Assembly: GCF_000720765.1 (NCBI RefSeq)
Contig: NZ_JODC01000007.1
Span: 186,001 to 250,000, forward strand
Source: Streptomyces sp. NRRL S-646
GTDB taxonomy: Bacteria > Actinomycetota > Actinomycetes > Streptomycetales > Streptomycetaceae
Reading direction: 5' to 3'
Length of the DNA: 64,000 nucleotides
Below are positions 21,084-30,150 of this stretch, one piece after another. A program made the position numbers and the translations under genes. How positions within the stretch are numbered: position 1 is the stretch's first letter; each line of letters begins with the position of its first letter. The notes beneath the pieces were generated by a model, which did no database searches, was not told the origin of the DNA, and saw nothing but the letters and a program-made list of their open reading frames with translations.

Positions 21084-21599
21084 TCAGGCCGTCACCCAGT
21101 CCGTGACGAGCACTCCCTCGCCGGTCCGCAGCCGCAGCGCGAAGGGGCCGGCGGGGGGTTCGTCATAGGTGAAGCGACCCATGTCGTCGGTGGTCAGCGG
21201 CGAGCCGGCCTGCGGGCCGCTGAGCACCTCGATGCCGGCCGACTGCGGCGGCAGCACCTGACCCATCAGCCCCTGTGCGGTCAGTTCGACGTCGACCGTC
21301 ACCCCGCCCACGTGGAACGTGAGCATCCGCGGCACATCCGTCGCTCCCCTGACGGGGATGGCGTCGACCACCGAGTCGAAGGTCAGCTCGGCGATGCGGG
21401 CGTCGAGGTCGTGCAGTGCGAAGGCCTCGACGGCGATCTGCCGCAGCCCGGCCGGCACCGGGTCCAGGATGGCCGCGGCCCGCCGGAGCTCCTCCTCCAC
21501 CAGGTCGTACGCCATCTCGTCGATGCCGTTGATGTCGTCCAGCTCGTTGATGTCGTCGTTGTGGTCGGCGTTGTTGTTGGCGTTGTTCATGTCGGTCAC
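21084..21599 (-). CDS. Third gene of protease-sigma operon: possible sigma partner
   Basis: 171-aa protein with no recognised family. An Asn/Asp-rich N-terminus of about 25 residues precedes a helical segment (MAYDLVEEELRRAAAILDPV, ALHDLDARIAELTFDSVVD). The C-terminus is beta-rich, ending in DDMGRFTYDEPPAGPFALRL, a pattern like transthyretin-like (CarboxypepD_reg) domains. The GTG at 21599 overlaps the sigma-factor stop as GTGA, so the two proteins are made together. That coupling suggests it binds or regulates the sigma factor or is a protease substrate; this is inference. ATG at 21590 is the alternative start. Confidence 0.8.
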   Translation of the reverse strand: MTDMNNANNNADHNDDINELDDINGIDEMAYDLVEEELRRAAAILDPVPAGLRQIAVEAFALHDLDARIAELTFDSVVDAIPVRGATDVPRMLTFHVGGVTVDVELTAQGLMGQVLPPQSAGIEVLSGPQAGSPLTTDDMGRFTYDEPPAGPFALRLRTGEGVLVTDWVTA

Positions 21600-22234
21600 A
21601 CCGCTCCCCGTGCTTCCAGTCGTGCCCGCAGGCGCCGCAGACAGCGCTGGCGGAGCGGTCCGATGCTGCCCACGGCGATGCCGAGGGCCGCGGACACCTC
21701 CTGGTAGCTGGGCGGCGGCGAGGCCATCAGGACGCGCAGCAACTGCCTGCAGCGATCGCCGAGTTCCTCGAACTCCTGCCACAGGTGCCGGATGCGCTCG
21801 GTCTCGGCGGCCGCCTCCTCCAGGTCGAGGAACGACTGCTCGGGCGTACGGTCCTCACTGACCCGGTCCAGCAGTTGCGGATCGTCCGTCGGGGTCAGCC
21901 GCCTTAAGCTCTTGAGGACCTTCAGGGACTCGTGGCGCGCGGTGCTCGCCAGCCACGAGCCGGCCTTGTCGGGTTCGCGGATGCGCCCCAGGTGCTGGGC
22001 GAAGCGGAACCATACCGTCTGGTACACCTCGTGCGCGTCGGCGTCGGAGAGCCGGTGCGCGCGCACGACGGACCACACCAGTGGGCTCAGCCCCTCCACG
22101 AGCGCCTTCCAGGCCGCCGCGTCGCCGTCGACGGCAGACTGGACCAGCGCGCCGACATCTGCTCGGTCCACGGCCCCACCCCTCGTGTACGGCAAGTCAT
22201 CGTACGCCGTGGAGGGGACCGTTCCGGACGTCAT
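21596..22234 (-). CDS. ECF-type RNA polymerase sigma factor
   Basis: 212-aa sigma-70-family protein with only regions 2 and 4. Region 2 is seen around ADAHEVYQTVWFRFAQHL and SWLASTARHESLKVLK. Region 4 helix-turn-helix is around PSYQEVSAALGIAVGSIGPL followed by RQRCLRRLRARL. Its start overlaps the subtilase stop as ATGA, and its stop overlaps the next start as GTGA. No membrane anti-sigma factor is adjacent, so control may run through the proteases or the 171-aa protein. Confidence 0.92.
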   Translation of the reverse strand: MTSGTVPSTAYDDLPYTRGGAVDRADVGALVQSAVDGDAAAWKALVEGLSPLVWSVVRAHRLSDADAHEVYQTVWFRFAQHLGRIREPDKAGSWLASTARHESLKVLKSLRRLTPTDDPQLLDRVSEDRTPEQSFLDLEEAAAETERIRHLWQEFEELGDRCRQLLRVLMASPPPSYQEVSAALGIAVGSIGPLRQRCLRRLRARLEARGAV

Positions 22235-23667
22235 GCGGGAGGTGCCAGCTGCGTGACGGGCGTGGGGCGCCAAGTCGGCGGGCGCAGCGCCGGCACATGC
22301 GCCCCGCGCACCTCCGCGTACGCCCCGGTCTCCGCCAGGAGCTTCTTGCGGGCGGCGCGCGCATCGCTCAGTTTGTTGGCGGTCATGTAGGCGACGACCA
22401 TGCCCGCGGCGACCGGCGCGGCGAACGAGGTGCCGCTCCAGTGCGCGTAGCCCTCGAACATCACCTGGTCCGCCTTGCCGGCCGTGGGGGTGCCCGCCGT
22501 GCTCAGCACGCCGGTGTGCCGCGGGTACTGGCAGGTGCACGCGTATGTGAAGTGGTACCGGCACTCGTCGTAGGTGGAGTGCTGGTAGAGGTACGGCACG
22601 GGTGCGTCGAAGCCGGTCAGCGTGCTGGTCAGCCGCTCTCCGGGAGCGTAGGCCTTCACCCAGGAGCCGTAGTTGGAGAAACAGGCGCCGAACTCGCCAT
22701 CGCTGCGCAGGGCTCCGACCGACAGCACGGCGTCCTCGTAGTCGGGCAGATCGGCGTAGGCGGCGGGCCAGAACTTCGACGCGCTGGAGTTGTTGCCGGC
22801 CGCCGCGACCAGCAGGGTGCGCTGCCTGCGCAGTTCCTGCATGAAGCTCTGCACGCCGAGCAGGCCGTCGTCGCGGCCGTTGGCGGTGCCGGCGGAGAGG
22901 CTGATGACATCCGGCCAGCCGTGCTCGTCGACGGCGTCGAAGAGCCGCTGCCCGAACTGGTCCTCCAGGATCGCGCCGGCGTCGTTGAGGGTGCTGCGAA
23001 CGGTGATGTTCGTGTTGGGTGCGACGGCCGCCAGCAGGCCCGCGATGAAGGTGCCGTGGCCGACGTACTGCAGGAGGTTGCCCTGCGCATCGGTCTCGGT
23101 ACCGTGCAGGTCGCCCTGGACATGGGCGAGCAGCGGCACCGTCCGGTAGTCGTGGGTGAGGCCGTTGTCGATGACGAGGACGCCCACGGCGGTGTCCGCG
23201 TCGTAACCGGCCTCGGCGGCGGCCGGGTTGGTGCCCTGGGTGAGCGGGGCGGGCACGGGCTCGTCGCCGGGACAGGAGTTGACCGCGATCGACACCACGT
23301 GGTTGCGGCTGACCAGCCTGCGCCGGGCGCGTCCCTCGTGCTCGCGCATGGCCCGCAGGGCGTGCGCGACCGCCCGGTCGCCGCGCCGGTCGCCGTGGCC
23401 GGGGTCACCGACCTGGATACGGGTGATGCCGGATCGGTTGGTCTCCGGGCTCACCCGCTGCACGTGGTCGGCGGTCAGTCCGGTCGCCTCGGTGAAGTGG
23501 CCGCGCACGGTGTCCTCGACGAGCCGAGCCTCCTCACCGTCACGGGCCAGGACCACGCCCTTCTCGTAGATGAACTCGGCCGCGTCGTCGGGCCCCATCG
23601 CCAGGGAGACGTCCGGCATCGAACGCTGGATCTGGTCGAACTGTTCGTGGAATCGCTGAGGTGCCAT
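22231..23667 (-). CDS. Cytoplasmic S8 subtilisin-like serine protease
   Basis: 478-aa subtilase with the full triad: Asp167 (VLVIDNGL), His204 (YVGHGTFIAG), Ser414 (WSGTSFAAP), and oxyanion Asn292 (AAAGNNSS). There is no signal peptide or membrane helix, so it should stay in the cytoplasm, unlike most streptomycete subtilases. The first ~150 residues form an unassigned N-terminal domain. A Cys cluster (Cys369, Cys377, Cys379) sits in a loop before the serine. It is first in a coupled operon with an ECF sigma factor and diverges from the TPR-CHAT gene. GGGGGAGGA precedes the ATG. Confidence 0.92.
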   Translation of the reverse strand: MAPQRFHEQFDQIQRSMPDVSLAMGPDDAAEFIYEKGVVLARDGEEARLVEDTVRGHFTEATGLTADHVQRVSPETNRSGITRIQVGDPGHGDRRGDRAVAHALRAMREHEGRARRRLVSRNHVVSIAVNSCPGDEPVPAPLTQGTNPAAAEAGYDADTAVGVLVIDNGLTHDYRTVPLLAHVQGDLHGTETDAQGNLLQYVGHGTFIAGLLAAVAPNTNITVRSTLNDAGAILEDQFGQRLFDAVDEHGWPDVISLSAGTANGRDDGLLGVQSFMQELRRQRTLLVAAAGNNSSASKFWPAAYADLPDYEDAVLSVGALRSDGEFGACFSNYGSWVKAYAPGERLTSTLTGFDAPVPYLYQHSTYDECRYHFTYACTCQYPRHTGVLSTAGTPTAGKADQVMFEGYAHWSGTSFAAPVAAGMVVAYMTANKLSDARAARKKLLAETGAYAEVRGAHVPALRPPTWRPTPVTQLAPPA

Positions 23668-23777
23668 GGCGTGTCCTCCCCCTTGAGGCGACTGTCGTCA
23701 ATCAGAGTCGCGCAGCCGTCGATTGATACAGCGCCAAACCGGTGTGGGGCGCAACCACGGCCACTACCATCCTTTGA

Positions 23778-26381
23778 GTGACAGCGGGAAGCGACTCGGT
23801 TCTCGAACTGCTGCCGATGGTGTTCGCCGACCCGGGCGAGGCCCGGGCGCGGGCGCAGGGCGTGCTGGACTCCGATCCCACGCCCTGGCGCGCCTCCGTC
23901 GCGCACCAGGTGATCGGCATCTGGCAGCGGGACTGGGGCGACATGCGGATCGCGCTGCACCATCTGCGCCGCGCCCGCGATCTGGCGGCCCGCGCCCAGA
24001 CACCCGACCGGGAGGCGGACGTACTGGCCACGCTCGGCGTGGCGCTCGTGCACGCGGGCCGCACCCGCCAGGGCCTGGAGGCACTGCAGCGGGGTGTCGC
24101 GGTGAGCAGCGGGCACACCCGCGCGCGGGTCCTGTTCCGGCGGGCCTACGCCTCCTGGGTGCTGGGCCGTCACCGGGAGGCGCTGGAGGACGTACGCCGG
24201 GCGATTCCGGTGCTGCGGCAGGCGGACGACGTCATCTGGACGGCGCGGGCGCTGACCCTGCGGGCCACGGTGCATCTGGCGCTCGGCGCGGTGGACCGGG
24301 CGGAGGCGGACTTCACCGCCGCGCACGCGCAGTGGGACACCACCGGCCAGGAGCACGACAAGGCGGACGTGGTGGAGAGCCGGGGGCTTGCCGCGTTCCG
24401 GTCGGGCGACATCCCGGTGGCGCTGCGGCTGCTGGACGAGGCCGAGGAGCGCTACGCCAAGCTCGGCACGCCGTCGTTCATGCTCTACATCCGGCGCTGC
24501 GAGGTGCTGATGGCCGCCGGGCTCGCCCGGGAGGCGCTCGCCGAGGCGGACACCGCCACAGGGGCGCTCGACGGCATCGGCGGGCAGTCCACCCGCAAGG
24601 CGGAGCTGCTGCTGGTCGCGGCCCGCGCGGCGCGTCTGGCGGGCGATCCGCACACCGCGATCGCGCGCGCGGCACTGGCCGTTCGGCTGTTCGCCGGGCA
24701 GCGGCGCACCTGGTGGGAGACGCACGCCCGGCTGGTGCTGATCGAGGCGCGGGTGGCCGCAGGGCGCGGCTCGGGTCGTCTGGTCGCGGACGCGGCGGCG
24801 GTGGCCGAACGGCTCGCCTCGTTCGGCGCGCCGGCCGCCCCGGAGGCCTCGCTGCTCGCGGGCCGGATCGCGCTCTCCCTGGGCTGGACGGCGGACGCGG
24901 AGCGGCATCTGGCCGTCGCCGCCCGCAGCCGGCACAGCGGGCCGCCGCTGGCGCGGATGACAGGCTGGGCCGCGCAGGCGCTGCGCGCCCGGGCCGCAGG
25001 CTCCGGCCGGGGTGTCCTGGAGGCGTGCCGGCGCGGCCTCGACGTGCTCGACGACCACCGGATGACTCTGGGCGCCTCCGAGTTGCGGGCCCGCGCCACC
25101 GAACAGGGCGCGGAGCTGGCCGCGTTGGCCCAGCAGGCCAGCCTCGACTCGGGCAGTCCGCGCCGGCTGCTGATGTGGAGCGAACGCTGGCGGGCCACCG
25201 TCCTGTCCACGCCTCCCACCCGGCCGCCCGCCGATCCGGTCCTGCTCGGCAACCTGACCGCGTTCCGGGAGATCGCCGCCCGCGCCGAGGAGGCCCGCAG
25301 CGACGGCCGCCCGATCCCCACCCTGGAGCGTGAACAGCGGCGTCTGGAGCGGGAGATCCGCTCCCGGACGCTGCACATGCGCGGCGACGCGCCCGGTGCC
25401 GAGGACCGCTTCGACCCCGGGCGGCTGCTGGAGCGGCTGGGCGAGGTGCGGCTGGTGGAGCTCGCCGTGCTCGACGGGCGGGTCCAGGTGCTGCTGTGCG
25501 GGCAGGGGCGGGTGCGGCGGTTCGAGGCGGGGCTGCTCGCCGACGCCGAGACCGAGGCCGAGCATGTGCAGGCCGGGCTGCGCCGGCTGGCCCACCCGGG
25601 GGCGGAGGCACGCCTTCCGGTGGTCGAGGCGATGGGCCGCCGTCTGGAGGAGCTGCTGCTCGGCCCGGCCGCCGCGCAGCTCGGCTGCGGCCCGGTGGTG
25701 GTCGTACCGCCCAGCCGGCTGCACCGCGTGCCGTGGGCGCTGCTGCCGTCGCTGCGGGAGCGGGTGCTCAGCGTGTCGCCGTCGGCGAGCAGCTGGCTGC
25801 GCGCCCACGGGACCGAGCCGCCGCCCGGTGGCCGCCACGTCCTGGTCCGCGGGCCGGGGCTCGCCACCGGCGGCGCGGAAGTGCCCGAACTCGCCGACCG
25901 CTACGGCAGACCGACCCTCCTGGAACACGACGATGCGCGCGTGCCGCGCGTTCTGGAGGAACTCGACGGCGCCGCGCTCGCCCACATCGCCGCGCACGGC
26001 ACCTTTCGCGCCGACAGCCCCCTGTTCTCCGCCCTGCGAATGGCCGACGGCCCGCTCATCGTGCACGACTTCGAACGCCTGGACCGCAGCCCGTACCGGA
26101 TCATCCTGTCCAGCTGCGACACCGCCCGCCTCGCCTCGGTCGGCGCGGACGAACTCCTCGGCCTGGTCACCGCCCTGCTGCCGCTGGGTACGGCGGGGGT
26201 GCTGGCCAGCAGCGCACCCGTCAACGACCATGCCGTGGTGCCGCTGATGCTGGCCCTGCACAAGGGCCTGAGCGCGGGCCTGTCCCTGGCCGAGGCCCTG
26301 CGCGACGCGCGGGCATCACTGCCGGGGGATGCCGTGCACCAGGCCACGGGGTGGGCGTTCACGGCGTTCGGGGCGGCCTGA
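23778..26381 (+). CDS. TPR-CHAT caspase-like protease
   Basis: 867-aa protein. Residues ~1-480 are helical repeats of TPR character (for example AREALAEADTATGALDGIG and AARAARLAGDPHTAIARAAL). A CHAT domain occupies the C-terminal ~300 residues. The caspase-like dyad is His740 in HIAAHGTF and Cys780 in LSSCDTAR, followed by GADELLGLVTALLPLGTAG, typical of CHAT. It starts at GTG 23778 and is divergent from the subtilase-sigma operon with 110 bp between. TPR-CHAT proteins act as sensor-triggered proteases in bacterial conflict and stress systems, including Csx29 of type III-E CRISPR. Confidence 0.93.
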   Translation: MTAGSDSVLELLPMVFADPGEARARAQGVLDSDPTPWRASVAHQVIGIWQRDWGDMRIALHHLRRARDLAARAQTPDREADVLATLGVALVHAGRTRQGLEALQRGVAVSSGHTRARVLFRRAYASWVLGRHREALEDVRRAIPVLRQADDVIWTARALTLRATVHLALGAVDRAEADFTAAHAQWDTTGQEHDKADVVESRGLAAFRSGDIPVALRLLDEAEERYAKLGTPSFMLYIRRCEVLMAAGLAREALAEADTATGALDGIGGQSTRKAELLLVAARAARLAGDPHTAIARAALAVRLFAGQRRTWWETHARLVLIEARVAAGRGSGRLVADAAAVAERLASFGAPAAPEASLLAGRIALSLGWTADAERHLAVAARSRHSGPPLARMTGWAAQALRARAAGSGRGVLEACRRGLDVLDDHRMTLGASELRARATEQGAELAALAQQASLDSGSPRRLLMWSERWRATVLSTPPTRPPADPVLLGNLTAFREIAARAEEARSDGRPIPTLEREQRRLEREIRSRTLHMRGDAPGAEDRFDPGRLLERLGEVRLVELAVLDGRVQVLLCGQGRVRRFEAGLLADAETEAEHVQAGLRRLAHPGAEARLPVVEAMGRRLEELLLGPAAAQLGCGPVVVVPPSRLHRVPWALLPSLRERVLSVSPSASSWLRAHGTEPPPGGRHVLVRGPGLATGGAEVPELADRYGRPTLLEHDDARVPRVLEELDGAALAHIAAHGTFRADSPLFSALRMADGPLIVHDFERLDRSPYRIILSSCDTARLASVGADELLGLVTALLPLGTAGVLASSAPVNDHAVVPLMLALHKGLSAGLSLAEALRDARASLPGDAVHQATGWAFTAFGAA

Positions 26382-26473: not shown

Positions 26474-26932
26474 ATGGGTGCGGTGTACGGGTTGGTCATC
26501 GCGTGGCGCAAGCGTGTGTGGCCGGGCGGCGCCGGTCTGCTCCTCGGGGGCGTGCTCATCGGCGCCACGGGGAACACAGGGCAGCAGCTCGTCGAGACCA
26601 AGGTCAAACCGGCGACGACCATCACCGCGACCGTCACGGCCACGCCCCGACCCGGCCCCACGGTCACCGAAACCGTCGAGGTCAAGGCCAAGCCGACCCC
26701 CACGGTCACCGTCACCAGAACCGCCGCCGCCAAAGCCGCAAGCAGCGGCTGCGGGGGCAGCAGCAGCCATAACAGCGTCGGCACCTGCTCGATCAAGTCC
26801 AACGCGGGCAACTGCTACTCGGCGGGCCGGTTCTGCCGCAACAGCGACCACGGCGCCGTCACGACCACCGCGGGCGGCACACCGATCAAGTGCACGTACA
26901 GCTCGAACGCGTGGCGCTGGAAATACGCCTGA
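26474..26932 (+). CDS. Membrane-anchored Thr-rich stalk protein with Cys-rich tail
   Basis: 152-aa product. One N-terminal membrane helix (WPGGAGLLLGGVLIGATG) is followed by a Thr/Pro/Val stalk with repeated TVT and PxPTVT units. The C-terminus has four or more Cys (SNAGNCYSAGRFCRNSDHG, then IKCTYSSNAWRWKYA), likely a small disulfide-bonded extracellular module. It lies 92 bp after the TPR-CHAT gene on the same strand and could be part of that unit. No function is recognised. Confidence 0.72.
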   Translation: MGAVYGLVIAWRKRVWPGGAGLLLGGVLIGATGNTGQQLVETKVKPATTITATVTATPRPGPTVTETVEVKAKPTPTVTVTRTAAAKAASSGCGGSSSHNSVGTCSIKSNAGNCYSAGRFCRNSDHGAVTTTAGGTPIKCTYSSNAWRWKYA

Positions 26933-27016: not shown

Positions 27017-28969
27017 TCAGGCCGGCTGCGCGTCCGGCAGCTCCACGAGCCACGGCAGGGAACCCCGGTCGCTCGCGCCGAGCCGGGCGTAGGCGCTGTA
27101 GAGGTGGTTGCCGACGGTGCGGATGGACAGCGTCAGCTGTTCCGCGATCTGCCGGTTGCTCAGGCCCGCCGCCGCCAGGGTGACGATCTGCCGCTGGCGG
27201 GCGGTCAGTTCACCCAGGACCAGCCCCGACAGGGCCGGGGTGCGGGCGCCCTGGCAGCGGCGGGCCAGGGCGACGGCACGTGTGCGTGAGGTGCGTGCGG
27301 CGCGCGGGTCGCGGTGCGCGCGTACGGCCTGCGCGTGCGCCTCGGCCGCGAACAGCAGGAACCCACGCCCCTCCAGCGCCTCCGCGGCCCGGTCCAGGGC
27401 CGGTCCGTCCCCACGGGCCAGCGCCTCGGCATGCTGAGCGAACACTCCGTCGGCCGGGAGGCGTTCGGCGACCTTCTCGGGCACCCCGAGGCGTACGGCG
27501 TCGTAGAGGATGAACGCGCTGTCGGTGCCGGCGATTTCGGACGTCGCGGTGGCCGTGCGAGGGGATTCGGCGGTCATACGGTCGCTGCCGTCGCCGTACC
27601 GCTGCACCATGCCGTCGGTGGCCTCGCCGATCGCCGCGAGCGCCCCGTCCATGTCTCCGCGGGCCGCGATCAGCCATGCGGACGGCTCATCCAGGTCCGG
27701 GCAGCCCGCCACGGCCTCCTGGGCGGTCGCCGCATCCCCCGACTGCGCGGCGGCCAGGGCGAGTTCGGTGCGGCAGGGCACGTCGTCCACAGCGCCCCGC
27801 AGTCCTTCCCGCGCCCAGGCCGCCGCCTCCCGCAGCTCCCCCCGAAGCCGCGAGAACCGTGCCCGTACGGCCGCGTACCCGGCGGGCACCGGTGCGCCCT
27901 CCTGCGCGAACCACTCCCCCACAGGCGTCGGCAGCGGCCGTACGTCCGCCTGCTCGATCCGGCGGGTCAGCGCGGCCGACTCGACGGCGAGGGCCGCGGC
28001 ACACTGGGCGGGTGTGCGGGCCAGCCGCCGGGCCCTGAGCCTGCCCGCCGCGGCGCGCAGCACCGGGCCGTGCAGGGGGTGGGCGAGGCGGACAGTGCCC
28101 TGGTCGTCCCGGTCGCCCTGGTCGTCGATGCGGATCAGCCCGTCGGCCTCCAGGTCCTCCAGGATCCGCAGGTCGAAGTCGTCCACATGCAGGGCCAGGG
28201 GCTCTGCGAAGGCGAGGCGTTCGAGCGTATTGCTCTCCTCGGGGCCGGAGCGTTCGAGGAGCTCGGCGGTGCGCCGGCGGACGGTCGCCGTCACCGGCAC
28301 CGGGCCCCGCCACGCCCATTCCCCCGCGTCCGGGAAGAGGCGGGTCAGCAGGCCCCGCTCGCGCACCGCGTCCACCAGTTCGCGCAGCAGCCTCAAGTCT
28401 CCCTGGCACAGGTGGTGGAGGCGGTTCAGGGTGAGCGGCTCCAGGTGACCGCCGACGCCCGCCGCGAGGAGCTGTTCGGTGTCCTCGTGCGGCAGCGGCT
28501 GCAGGGCGAGACGCGGCAGCAGCTCACCGGTCCACAGCCGGGAGATCGCGCCGGGGTACGGGCCCCCGTCGGCGGCGACGACGATCAGGCGGGTGCGGCC
28601 GTGCACGGCCAGCTGGTGCACGAGGGCGGCCGAGGCGTCGTCGAGCAGATGCGCGTCGTCGACCACCAGCAGCCGTACCCCGGACAGGAGTTGGACCGCA
28701 CGGTGCAGAGTGACCGCCTCAGGCAGCAGGTGGGCGAACGCGGCGAAGGGGATGTGCCGGGTCTCGGGTGTCCCGGCCGCGCGGGCGCGGTCGCTGCCCC
28801 GCACGGCCTCGGTGACGAGCCGGGTCTTGCCGCAGCCGGCCGGTCCGGTCACCACGATGCCGTGCCGGCCTGCGGTCAGGGAGCGGCGGATCAGCTCGAG
28901 CTCTTCCTCACGTCCGGTGAACTGCCAGGGCAGCTCAAGGGTCTTCGCGTCGCGTTCGAAAGTCGTCAC
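27017..28969 (-). CDS. Large ATP-binding LuxR-family (LAL/STAND) regulator
   Basis: About 650-aa transcription factor. The N-terminal ATPase has Walker A TGPAGCGKT near residue 50 and Walker B LLVVDDAHLLDD. A long helical middle region follows. The C-terminal LuxR helix-turn-helix reads [20 protein letters not shown], then IAEQLTLSIRTVGNHLYSAY. Such regulators bind DNA after ATP- and ligand-driven assembly. GTG 28969 is chosen; an in-frame TTG at 28993 would fall inside the operator-like palindrome. The metalloprotease gene is divergent and is a probable target. Confidence 0.87.
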   Translation of the reverse strand: MTTFERDAKTLELPWQFTGREEELELIRRSLTAGRHGIVVTGPAGCGKTRLVTEAVRGSDRARAAGTPETRHIPFAAFAHLLPEAVTLHRAVQLLSGVRLLVVDDAHLLDDASAALVHQLAVHGRTRLIVVAADGGPYPGAISRLWTGELLPRLALQPLPHEDTEQLLAAGVGGHLEPLTLNRLHHLCQGDLRLLRELVDAVRERGLLTRLFPDAGEWAWRGPVPVTATVRRRTAELLERSGPEESNTLERLAFAEPLALHVDDFDLRILEDLEADGLIRIDDQGDRDDQGTVRLAHPLHGPVLRAAAGRLRARRLARTPAQCAAALAVESAALTRRIEQADVRPLPTPVGEWFAQEGAPVPAGYAAVRARFSRLRGELREAAAWAREGLRGAVDDVPCRTELALAAAQSGDAATAQEAVAGCPDLDEPSAWLIAARGDMDGALAAIGEATDGMVQRYGDGSDRMTAESPRTATATSEIAGTDSAFILYDAVRLGVPEKVAERLPADGVFAQHAEALARGDGPALDRAAEALEGRGFLLFAAEAHAQAVRAHRDPRAARTSRTRAVALARRCQGARTPALSGLVLGELTARQRQIVTLAAAGLSNRQIAEQLTLSIRTVGNHLYSAYARLGASDRGSLPWLVELPDAQPA

Positions 28970-28986
28970 GGGAGTATGAGCGCGAG

Positions 28987-29017
28987 TACTCAACCCTGAT
29001 ACAGGGTGACTTGAGTA
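28987..29017. promoter_or_regulatory. Nested inverted repeats between LuxR-type and metalloprotease genes
   Basis: Outer arms TACTCAA and TTGAGTA (7/7 match, 17-bp spacer) enclose a second perfect repeat, ACCCTG-ATA-CAGGGT (28993-29007). The pair occupies the middle of the short divergent intergenic region and is a good candidate operator. Confidence 0.6.
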
Positions 29018-29064
29018 GCCCCCGACTCAGGCGCCTGTGTCCCTGCCCACGGCAACCTGTGCGC

Positions 29065-30150
29065 ATGACCGGACGCTACTGCTCCCTCGCGCAGCAGTCG
29101 GCCCCCGCTTTCACACCGGGGCTGACCGCCGAGCGGCTCAGTGCGCTCATCGGCGGACGGTCGATGTGGGTCAACGGCACCGTGCTGCACTACTGGTTCT
29201 TCGACGGCGACACCGACGGGTCGGTCATTCCCGTACCGGGAACCGGGCAGTCCCGCCGGGTGTCGTGGGTCGGCGCCAAGGAGCAGCGGGACGTGGTGCG
29301 CGAGTGCTTCGAGGAGTGGCAGGGCCTCGGCATCGGTGTGTCCTTCGTCGAGGTCGGCGACCGCTCGGAGGCCGAGCTGCGCATCGGGTTCCAGCTCGGT
29401 GACGGCTCCTGGTCGATGGTGGGCAAGGACTGCCTGCAGGCCGGGCAGAACGAACGGACCATGAACTTCGGCTGGGACCTGACCGCGCCCGGGGAGCGCG
29501 GGACGGCCCTGCACGAGATCGGGCATGCGCTCGGCATGCTGCACGAGCACCAGAGCCCGTTCGCCGGCATCCACTGGGACGACGAGGCCGTCTACGCCGA
29601 GCTGGCGGGCCCGCCGAACTTCTGGAGCCGGGACAGGACGTACTTCAACATCCTGCGCAAGCTCGACCCGGACGAGGTCAACGGCTCCGTCTGGGACCCG
29701 CAGTCGATCATGGAGTATCCGTTCTCGGACGGGCTGATCCTGGAGCCGGAGCAGTTCCGTGGGGGCCTGAACCCGCCCGGCACGCTCTCTCCCGCCGACA
29801 AGGAGTTCGTGCTGCGCTGGTACCCGCCGGCCGACGTGCCGCGGCCGCCCGCGCTGGTGCCCTTCCGCTCCGCGCCGCTCGGTCTGGGCCCCGGAGAGCA
29901 GGCCGACTTCACCGTCGATCCGCCGGAGACCCGCGAGTACACGATCGGCACCTTCGGTGCGAGCGACTGCGTCGTCGTGGTCTTCGAGGAGCGGGACGGG
30001 GAGCCCCGCTACCTCGCAGGACGGGACGACGGCGGAGCACCGCACAACGCCACCATCAAGGCCCGGCTCGTCAAGGGCCGCAGCTACTTCGTCCGAGTAC
30101 GTCTGTACTCCGCGTGGGGTCCGGGGGAAACAGCGGTCATGTGCTGGTGA
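29065..30150 (+). CDS. Astacin-like (M12A/metzincin) zinc metalloprotease
   Basis: 361-aa protease. The zinc-binding motif HEIGHALGMLHEHQSP has ligands His150, His154 and His160. The Met-turn SIMEYPF follows about 70 residues later, with a Tyr as in astacins. A C-terminal ~100-residue beta-rich domain ends GPGETAVMCW. No classical signal peptide is visible from ATG 29065, so export is unclear. It faces a large LuxR-type regulator across a palindromic region that may control both. Confidence 0.88.
   Translation: MTGRYCSLAQQSAPAFTPGLTAERLSALIGGRSMWVNGTVLHYWFFDGDTDGSVIPVPGTGQSRRVSWVGAKEQRDVVRECFEEWQGLGIGVSFVEVGDRSEAELRIGFQLGDGSWSMVGKDCLQAGQNERTMNFGWDLTAPGERGTALHEIGHALGMLHEHQSPFAGIHWDDEAVYAELAGPPNFWSRDRTYFNILRKLDPDEVNGSVWDPQSIMEYPFSDGLILEPEQFRGGLNPPGTLSPADKEFVLRWYPPADVPRPPALVPFRSAPLGLGPGEQADFTVDPPETREYTIGTFGASDCVVVVFEERDGEPRYLAGRDDGGAPHNATIKARLVKGRSYFVRVRLYSAWGPGETAVMCW

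Follow-up and report, generated by a model that had tools for sequence, protein, structure and literature searches.

A TPR-CHAT and subtilase cassette of actinomycetes as a candidate proteolytic sigma-factor switch with a predicted output at absR2 in Streptomyces

A 64,000-nucleotide stretch of Streptomyces sp. NRRL S-646 (contig NZ_JODC01000007.1; hereafter the window) carries a four-gene cassette for an S8-family subtilase (S8), an extracytoplasmic function (ECF)-type sigma factor, a protein of 171 amino acids (P171), and a caspase-like protease with tetratricopeptide repeats (TPR) and a CHAT domain (TPR-CHAT, or CHAT). We judge it an even call that the cassette is a chromosomal, self-amplifying proteolytic switch for its sigma factor. 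The transcriptional part of this proposal, in which the sigma factor drives its own operon and, in Streptomyces, the antibiotic regulator gene absR2, is quite likely. The chance that P171 is an inhibitor removed by proteolysis falls somewhat short of even, and an order of action in which CHAT precedes S8 is tentative. The proposal is built on a promoter signature, TGTATCA-N16-CTC, which recurs before cassette genes of distant actinomycetes and stands before absR2, and which we infer is read by the cassette sigma factor.

Three of the genes form an operon with overlapping frames on the minus strand. S8 is first (22231-23667; 478 amino acids) and shares ATGA with the sigma gene (21596-22234; 212 amino acids), which shares GTGA with the GTG-started P171 gene (21084-21599). 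The TPR-CHAT gene (23778-26381, plus strand; 867 amino acids, GTG start) is divergent, 110 bp from S8. These coordinates, the overlaps and the divergent spacing had been given in an earlier note on this DNA, and all of them hold. Pfam scores were above the cut-off for Sigma70_r2 (37.3 bits, cut-off 24), Peptidase_S8 (60.3), TPR_12 (40.6) and CHAT (96.8), and the NCBIfam model TIGR02937 (66.7, cut-off 42.9) places the sigma factor in the ECF type; P171 gave zero Pfam matches at E≤0.01 and none with NCBIfam. No membrane-helix-like hydrophobic stretch was present in any of the four proteins by 19-residue Kyte-Doolittle averages, the largest of which was 1.86, in CHAT. No signal peptide was seen in S8, the N-terminus of which gave 0.47. 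These values are consistent with a cytoplasmic location of all four proteins, which the earlier note had proposed for S8.

The promoter signature and absR2

When S8 was used as a query against one genome per species, 91 relatives were obtained and the best 80, all from Streptomyces, were kept. The S8-CHAT intergenic region was usable in 78 of these 80 loci, which together with the window gave 79 regions. TGTATC was kept in all 79, mostly some 62 nt ahead of the S8 start, and was nearly always followed by CTC or CTCT at a fixed distance; the spacing from TGTATCA to CTCT was 16 in 139 of the 140 sites used for a promoter matrix. In the window, the sigma promoter predicted for the S8-sigma-P171 operon lies at 23704-23730 on the minus strand and reads TGTATCA-N16-CTCT. 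Another conserved block of the intergenic alignment, TACCAT (23765-23770, plus strand), is a candidate −10 element of the CHAT gene, and its position 7 nt before the CHAT GTG predicts a leaderless mRNA.

The matrix, trained on Streptomyces sites only, was used to scan distant loci whole and on both strands. Of these, 12 were from the same order but outside Streptomyces and 40 from other families; they were hand-picked for diversity and non-random. In 33 of the 52 distant loci the best site was located no more than 900 bp before a cassette gene, against 4.7 expected from area, and 23 of the 29 sites with at least 10 bits were upstream of a cassette gene. The exact form TGTATCA-N15-17-CTC was present at most 1200 bp before a cassette gene in 31/56 loci, four of the 56 being from Streptomyces. 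Without correction for relatedness, the site was commoner where the sigma factor was closer to that of Streptomyces (Spearman 0.50), and sigma closeness differed between loci with and without the motif (28 versus 23; Mann-Whitney p 7.5e-4). One genome (G249) contains two cassettes, L176 and L177, and has the TGTATCA motif in the Streptomyces-like one only, which suggests that the two have separate sigma specificities.

In 101 Streptomyces genomes, the exact motif was matched in 26 of the 27 with S8 and in 8 of the 74 without S8; the matches in the 26 were not all at S8 (e.g. in G001 and G573). The strict form TGTATCA-N16-CTCT gave 45 sites in the 101 genomes, 24 at S8, 5 at absR2 and 16 elsewhere, and no other conserved target was found with this strict form. 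The genome of the window has five sites of the form TGTATCA-N15-17-CTC: one at the S8 operon, one facing absR2 and three elsewhere.

The site at absR2 (28978-29003, minus strand) is the second predicted sigma promoter, identified in Streptomyces loci and in the scan of the window's own genome. It precedes absR2 (27017-28969, minus strand), which encodes a LuxR-family (LAL) regulator matched by the NCBIfam AbsR2 model with 1015 bits. Of the 64 Streptomyces loci with a placeable absR2, 59 have the site, 54 have exactly two sites on the cassette strand, and none has a site on the opposite strand. The window has TGTATC starting 34 nt ahead of GTG 28969, the probable start codon, which suggests a leaderless absR2 message. 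The longest absR2 open reading frame (27017-28993) begins with a TTG at 28993 that falls within the predicted promoter. Judged by the conserved motif and by relatives, GTG 28969 is the probable start. The promoter spacer at absR2 also contains a conserved TGAGTA block (GAGTACTC, a palindrome, in the window) that is absent from the S8 promoter and is possibly an AbsR2 autoregulatory site. Across the 101 genomes, AbsR2 (E≤1e-60) was found in 25, of which 24 have S8; the exception, G551, is 79% complete. AbsR2 was thus present in 24/27 S8 genomes versus 1/74 others (Fisher p 7e-19, uncorrected for shared ancestry), and the S8 genomes without it are G001, G573 and G615.

Published work on Streptomyces coelicolor bears on the direction of this output. 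By gene order and annotations, it follows that SCO6994 is CHAT, SCO6995 is S8, SCO6996 is the sigma factor and SCO6997 is P171. AbsR2 (SCO6993) is a repressor of actII-ORF4 and redD that also binds its own promoter (PMC9628970), and expression of SCO6995, an intracellular serine protease, was reported to inhibit antibiotic production (PMC2936110). The signs agree: antibiotic output falls with more S8 and rises with loss of AbsR2, and the promoter signature stands before absR2. SCO6992 stimulates antibiotics, and extra SCO6993 damped that effect (PMC9705864). The sigma factor SCO6996 has been detected, with higher abundance in phosphate sufficiency (PMC9739823).

Conservation of the cassette and its proteins

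In the 80 Streptomyces loci, the sigma factor and CHAT were each found in 79 and P171 in 78; the four missing genes correspond to contig ends (L054, L069 twice, and L070). The loci are syntenic, and absR2 and absR1 (in the window an open reading frame at 29011-30150, plus strand, recognised by an NCBIfam model) are as a rule located beyond CHAT. P171 was found in 84/197 genomes of the order. Its profile matched 122/394 genomes of the class, in 55/137 genera, and 13 of 149 genomes sampled throughout the phylum, of which 9 fall outside the class; the phylum count is for P171 alone. All four genes were within 8 kb in 11/12 same-order loci, the remaining one meeting a contig end, and in 27/40 other-family loci. 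Among these 40, the sigma factor was present in 39, CHAT in 32 (one, L188, a distant fragment) and S8 in 29. The sigma gene was directly upstream of P171 on the same strand in 12/12 same-order and 35/40 other-family loci (47/52 in total). This recurrence, in Streptomyces and in other actinomycete families, indicates linkage beyond chance, and the genome search thus returned the opposite of the absent linkage that the earlier note had named as evidence against its proposal.

Gene order varies outside Streptomyces. A one-direction S8-sigma-P171-CHAT arrangement is common, and the divergent CHAT of the Streptomyces type recurs (L176 and Nonomuraea L240). Some loci have the sigma factor and P171 without S8 and CHAT (L166, L168, L171 and L193), and some genomes have two to four P171 copies. 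In one family (f21; L166, L171, L188 and L193) the sigma-P171 pair without S8 lies beside a conserved block that includes sepH. The neighbours in 17 of the 40 other-family loci, with a weak match in one of them, are genes that we take to be sepH and its neighbours, a recurrence pointing to an old chromosomal site for the cassette. Among plasmid records, P171 was found in one only, that of an 11.85-Mb Nonomuraea replicon filed there (L240, NZ_LT559118.1), where the cassette is divergent and the TGTATCA motif is present. A GenBank record named as a bacteriophage from human faeces (L239, MT838002.1) contains S8, sigma, P171 and CHAT at 74% GC and is probably a mislabelled actinobacterial contig.

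The catalytic residues of both proteases are conserved, and the intact S8 triad and CHAT dyad described in the earlier note were confirmed in alignments. In the window, CHAT has His740 and Cys780, and S8 has Asp167, His204, Asn292 and Ser414. The CHAT His was present in 72/72 Streptomyces and 47/48 other sequences and the Cys in 71/72 and 46/48, all exceptions being alignment gaps; counted among the 48 others are four loci from Streptomyces and an unrelated CHAT of the window's genome. In S8, Asp and His were present in 80/80 Streptomyces and 44/44 other sequences, Ser in 79/80 (one X) and 44/44, and Asn in 79/80 and 44/44. A CHAT-domain profile of 34 sequences matched PDB entry 8rot (E 5.4e-12), Craspase TPR-CHAT at about 1e-9 (8d9f at E 7.8e-10), Csx29 7y9x (E 3.3e-6) and separase chains at about 1e-3, and we regard TPR-CHAT as the candidate sensor and initiator. 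RAMP proteins (PF03787) were absent from the whole window genome in a search that was positive in 4/14 control genomes; Cas7-11 is therefore not expected.

The P171 model (predicted local distance difference test score 82.8) has two predicted helices and an immunoglobulin (Ig)-like sandwich as its C-terminal half. Among 28 relatives, 21 had a weak CarboxypepD_reg match at E≤0.05 (best 5.5e-5), and several relatives bear the database name 'carboxypeptidase regulatory-like'. The fold comparison covered the Ig-like part. A search of PDB chains with the P171 profile gave no match at E≤5, in a comparison of which Csx30 itself was not part. We propose that P171 is a sigma inhibitor or adaptor.

The proposed switch and competing explanations

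In the proposed switch, P171, encoded directly after the sigma factor, would hold it inactive in the resting cell through the N-terminal helices. On sensing a signal through its TPR repeats, CHAT would become active and would then activate S8 or nick P171; S8 would remove P171 and free the sigma factor. The freed sigma factor would transcribe its own operon, giving more protease, more sigma factor and fresh P171 for reset, and would transcribe absR2, whose product would turn antibiotic activators down. P171 is the candidate for the inhibitor removed by S8 because of the gene order. S8 is favoured as an activator of the sigma factor because SCO6995 expression inhibited antibiotics, whereas destruction of the sigma factor by S8 would give the opposite sign. 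We place CHAT ahead of S8, as the sensor, because it has TPR repeats, because in Streptomyces its gene has a separate candidate promoter, and because Csx29 offers a precedent (PMC10028731).

Several results weigh against this switch. The absR2 site was not found in the searched interval of 5/64 loci (L029, which is near a contig end, L030, L065, L074 and L082); in L065, L074 and L082 two sites are on the strand, outside that interval. In 19/52 distant loci the top site was not upstream of any cassette gene, and of the 33 upstream top sites four scored at most 7 bits. The motif showed no genome-wide excess: the window genome has 5 sites of TGTATCA-N15-17-CTC versus 8 of the reversed pattern, and the 16 off-locus sites in the 101 Streptomyces genomes compare with 25 reversed-pattern controls. 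The SCO6995 effect was given as 'data not shown', the same effect was reported for SCO5446 (PMC2936110), and SCO6995 was equated with S8 by gene order. Antibiotics were not significantly affected by extra SCO6993 alone (PMC9705864). No recognised anti-sigma domain was matched in P171 or its relatives with Pfam or NCBIfam, and cleavage and the role of P171 are steps that we infer.

An unlikely alternative for P171 is that of a co-activator or docking protein that brings the sigma factor or another client to the proteases. The C-terminal Ig-like sandwich is typical of binding modules, and several loci (L166, L168, L171 and L193) have the sigma factor with P171 but neither S8 nor CHAT, as this alternative would allow. 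Against it, sigma genes are usually followed by their anti-sigma genes in just this way, in an overlapping or close frame. For ECF54, the suggestion in print, also unlikely in our view, is that the neighbouring proteases degrade the sigma factor and keep the system off until a signal halts proteolysis, with P171 as an adaptor or an unrelated effector. One worked case, ClpXP degradation of AntA, supports it (PMC8999054). However, more S8 should then lower AbsR2 and raise antibiotics, and SCO6995 expression was reported as inhibitory (PMC2936110, data not shown); moreover, the protease would be driven by the sigma factor that it destroys, which is possible as negative feedback.

We consider it improbable that the cassette serves in anti-phage conflict or abortive infection, with protease activation killing or arresting the infected cell. 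This function would fit the use of TPR-CHAT and a sigma factor by type III-E CRISPR (PMC10028731) and the two to four P171 copies in some genomes. The Streptomyces copies, however, occupy one chromosomal place beside absR1/absR2, and the conserved predicted output is an antibiotic regulator. PADLOC matched only S8, as a generic subtilase (2.4e-7) and weakly as IetS (0.022), and 0/28 P171 relatives. Of the signalling or defence cassette that the earlier note had envisaged, stand-alone, CRISPR-free signalling is thus retained, in keeping with the absence of PF03787 and the recurrence of the set; the defence part lacks support in view of these observations and of the nature of the sole plasmid record. 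It is equally doubtful that TGTATCA-N16-CTC is bound by a different factor, either another sigma factor or a regulator common to both promoters, while the cassette sigma factor acts elsewhere. The link between motif and sigma factor is genetic only, which leaves room for such a factor, but the motif tracks the cassette across genomes (26/27 versus 8/74) and is commoner with a Streptomyces-like sigma factor (p 7.5e-4, relatedness not corrected).

Relation to known systems and neighbouring genes

The four-gene set is not new, although the earlier note had left open whether it had been described. A review gives the subtilase, CHAT and carboxypeptidase genes as conserved context of ECF54, and proposes proteolytic control for that reason (PMC8999054). 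The window sigma factor is likened to ECF54 by its sigma domains and gene context. Shared features are an ECF sigma factor, subtilase and CHAT genes that are conserved beside it, and the lack of a recognised anti-sigma factor; the 'carboxypeptidase(-regulatory)' gene of the ECF54 context may correspond to the P171 gene. In its passage on ECF54 the review proposes sigma degradation and names no promoter, absR2 output or inhibitor role for a small protein (PMC8999054). ECF54 as described there has a suggested proteolytic mechanism without a promoter, target or inhibitor, and a cross-family promoter with a single linked target makes the pathway testable. No earlier description of the promoter signature or of its link to absR2 was found in open-licence papers. 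The ECF classification papers (Huang 2015, Casas-Pastor 2021) may contain a predicted ECF54 motif.

The closest worked precedent is the type III-E CRISPR-associated protease system (CASP, or Craspase; Csx29-Csx30-CASP-sigma), in which the sigma inhibitor Csx30 is cut by a TPR-CHAT protease (PMC10028731). Both systems have a TPR-CHAT protein with a His/Cys dyad, an ECF-type sigma factor, a partner proposed to hold the sigma factor, and sigma sites in their own locus (PMC10028731). Unlike type III-E CASP, the present genome has no RAMP protein such as Cas7-11/gRAMP, and the present cassette adds a second, S8-type protease and is widespread in Actinomycetota chromosomes; P171 has 171 amino acids versus 565 for Csx30. 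In the type III CRISPR system CalpL-CalpT-CalpS, a protease cuts a sigma partner and frees an ECF-like sigma factor. That system differs from the present cassette in its Lon-type protease, SAVED sensor and cyclic nucleotides. The EACC2-caspase systems also combine a caspase and an ECF sigma factor in one neighbourhood, with a proposed transcriptional output, and differ by description in their set of EACC2, TRADD-N and DUF1822 domains (PMC8195603). Compared with a canonical ECF/anti-sigma pair, the partner gene is directly after the sigma gene, and the partner has no recognised anti-sigma domain.

Slightly more tentative than the order of the two proteases is the view that the cassette is a CRISPR-free, phylum-wide relative of Craspase in logic. 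TPR-CHAT and the subtilase would, in sequence, destroy a new class of soluble sigma inhibitor (a helical hairpin with an Ig-like domain), and the freed sigma factor would boost its own proteases and, in Streptomyces, lower antibiotics via absR2. If true, a bacterial caspase would have a housekeeping, non-immune role, and there would be a reason why the cassette is accompanied by absR2, a gene known only for antibiotic repression.

Other genes were noted around the locus and elsewhere in the genome. A second CHAT protein of the window's genome (L130, G000:C10, ~265361-266296) has an open frame of 1426 amino acids, and the 19 kb retrieved around it gave no cassette sigma factor, S8 or P171. A small open reading frame between CHAT and absR2 (26474-26932, plus strand) reads as a membrane-anchored, Thr/Pro-rich, Cys-containing protein. 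On the other side of the cassette, a cytochrome P450 gene (19833-21068, plus strand) is convergent with P171 and is linked in many, not all, Streptomyces loci.

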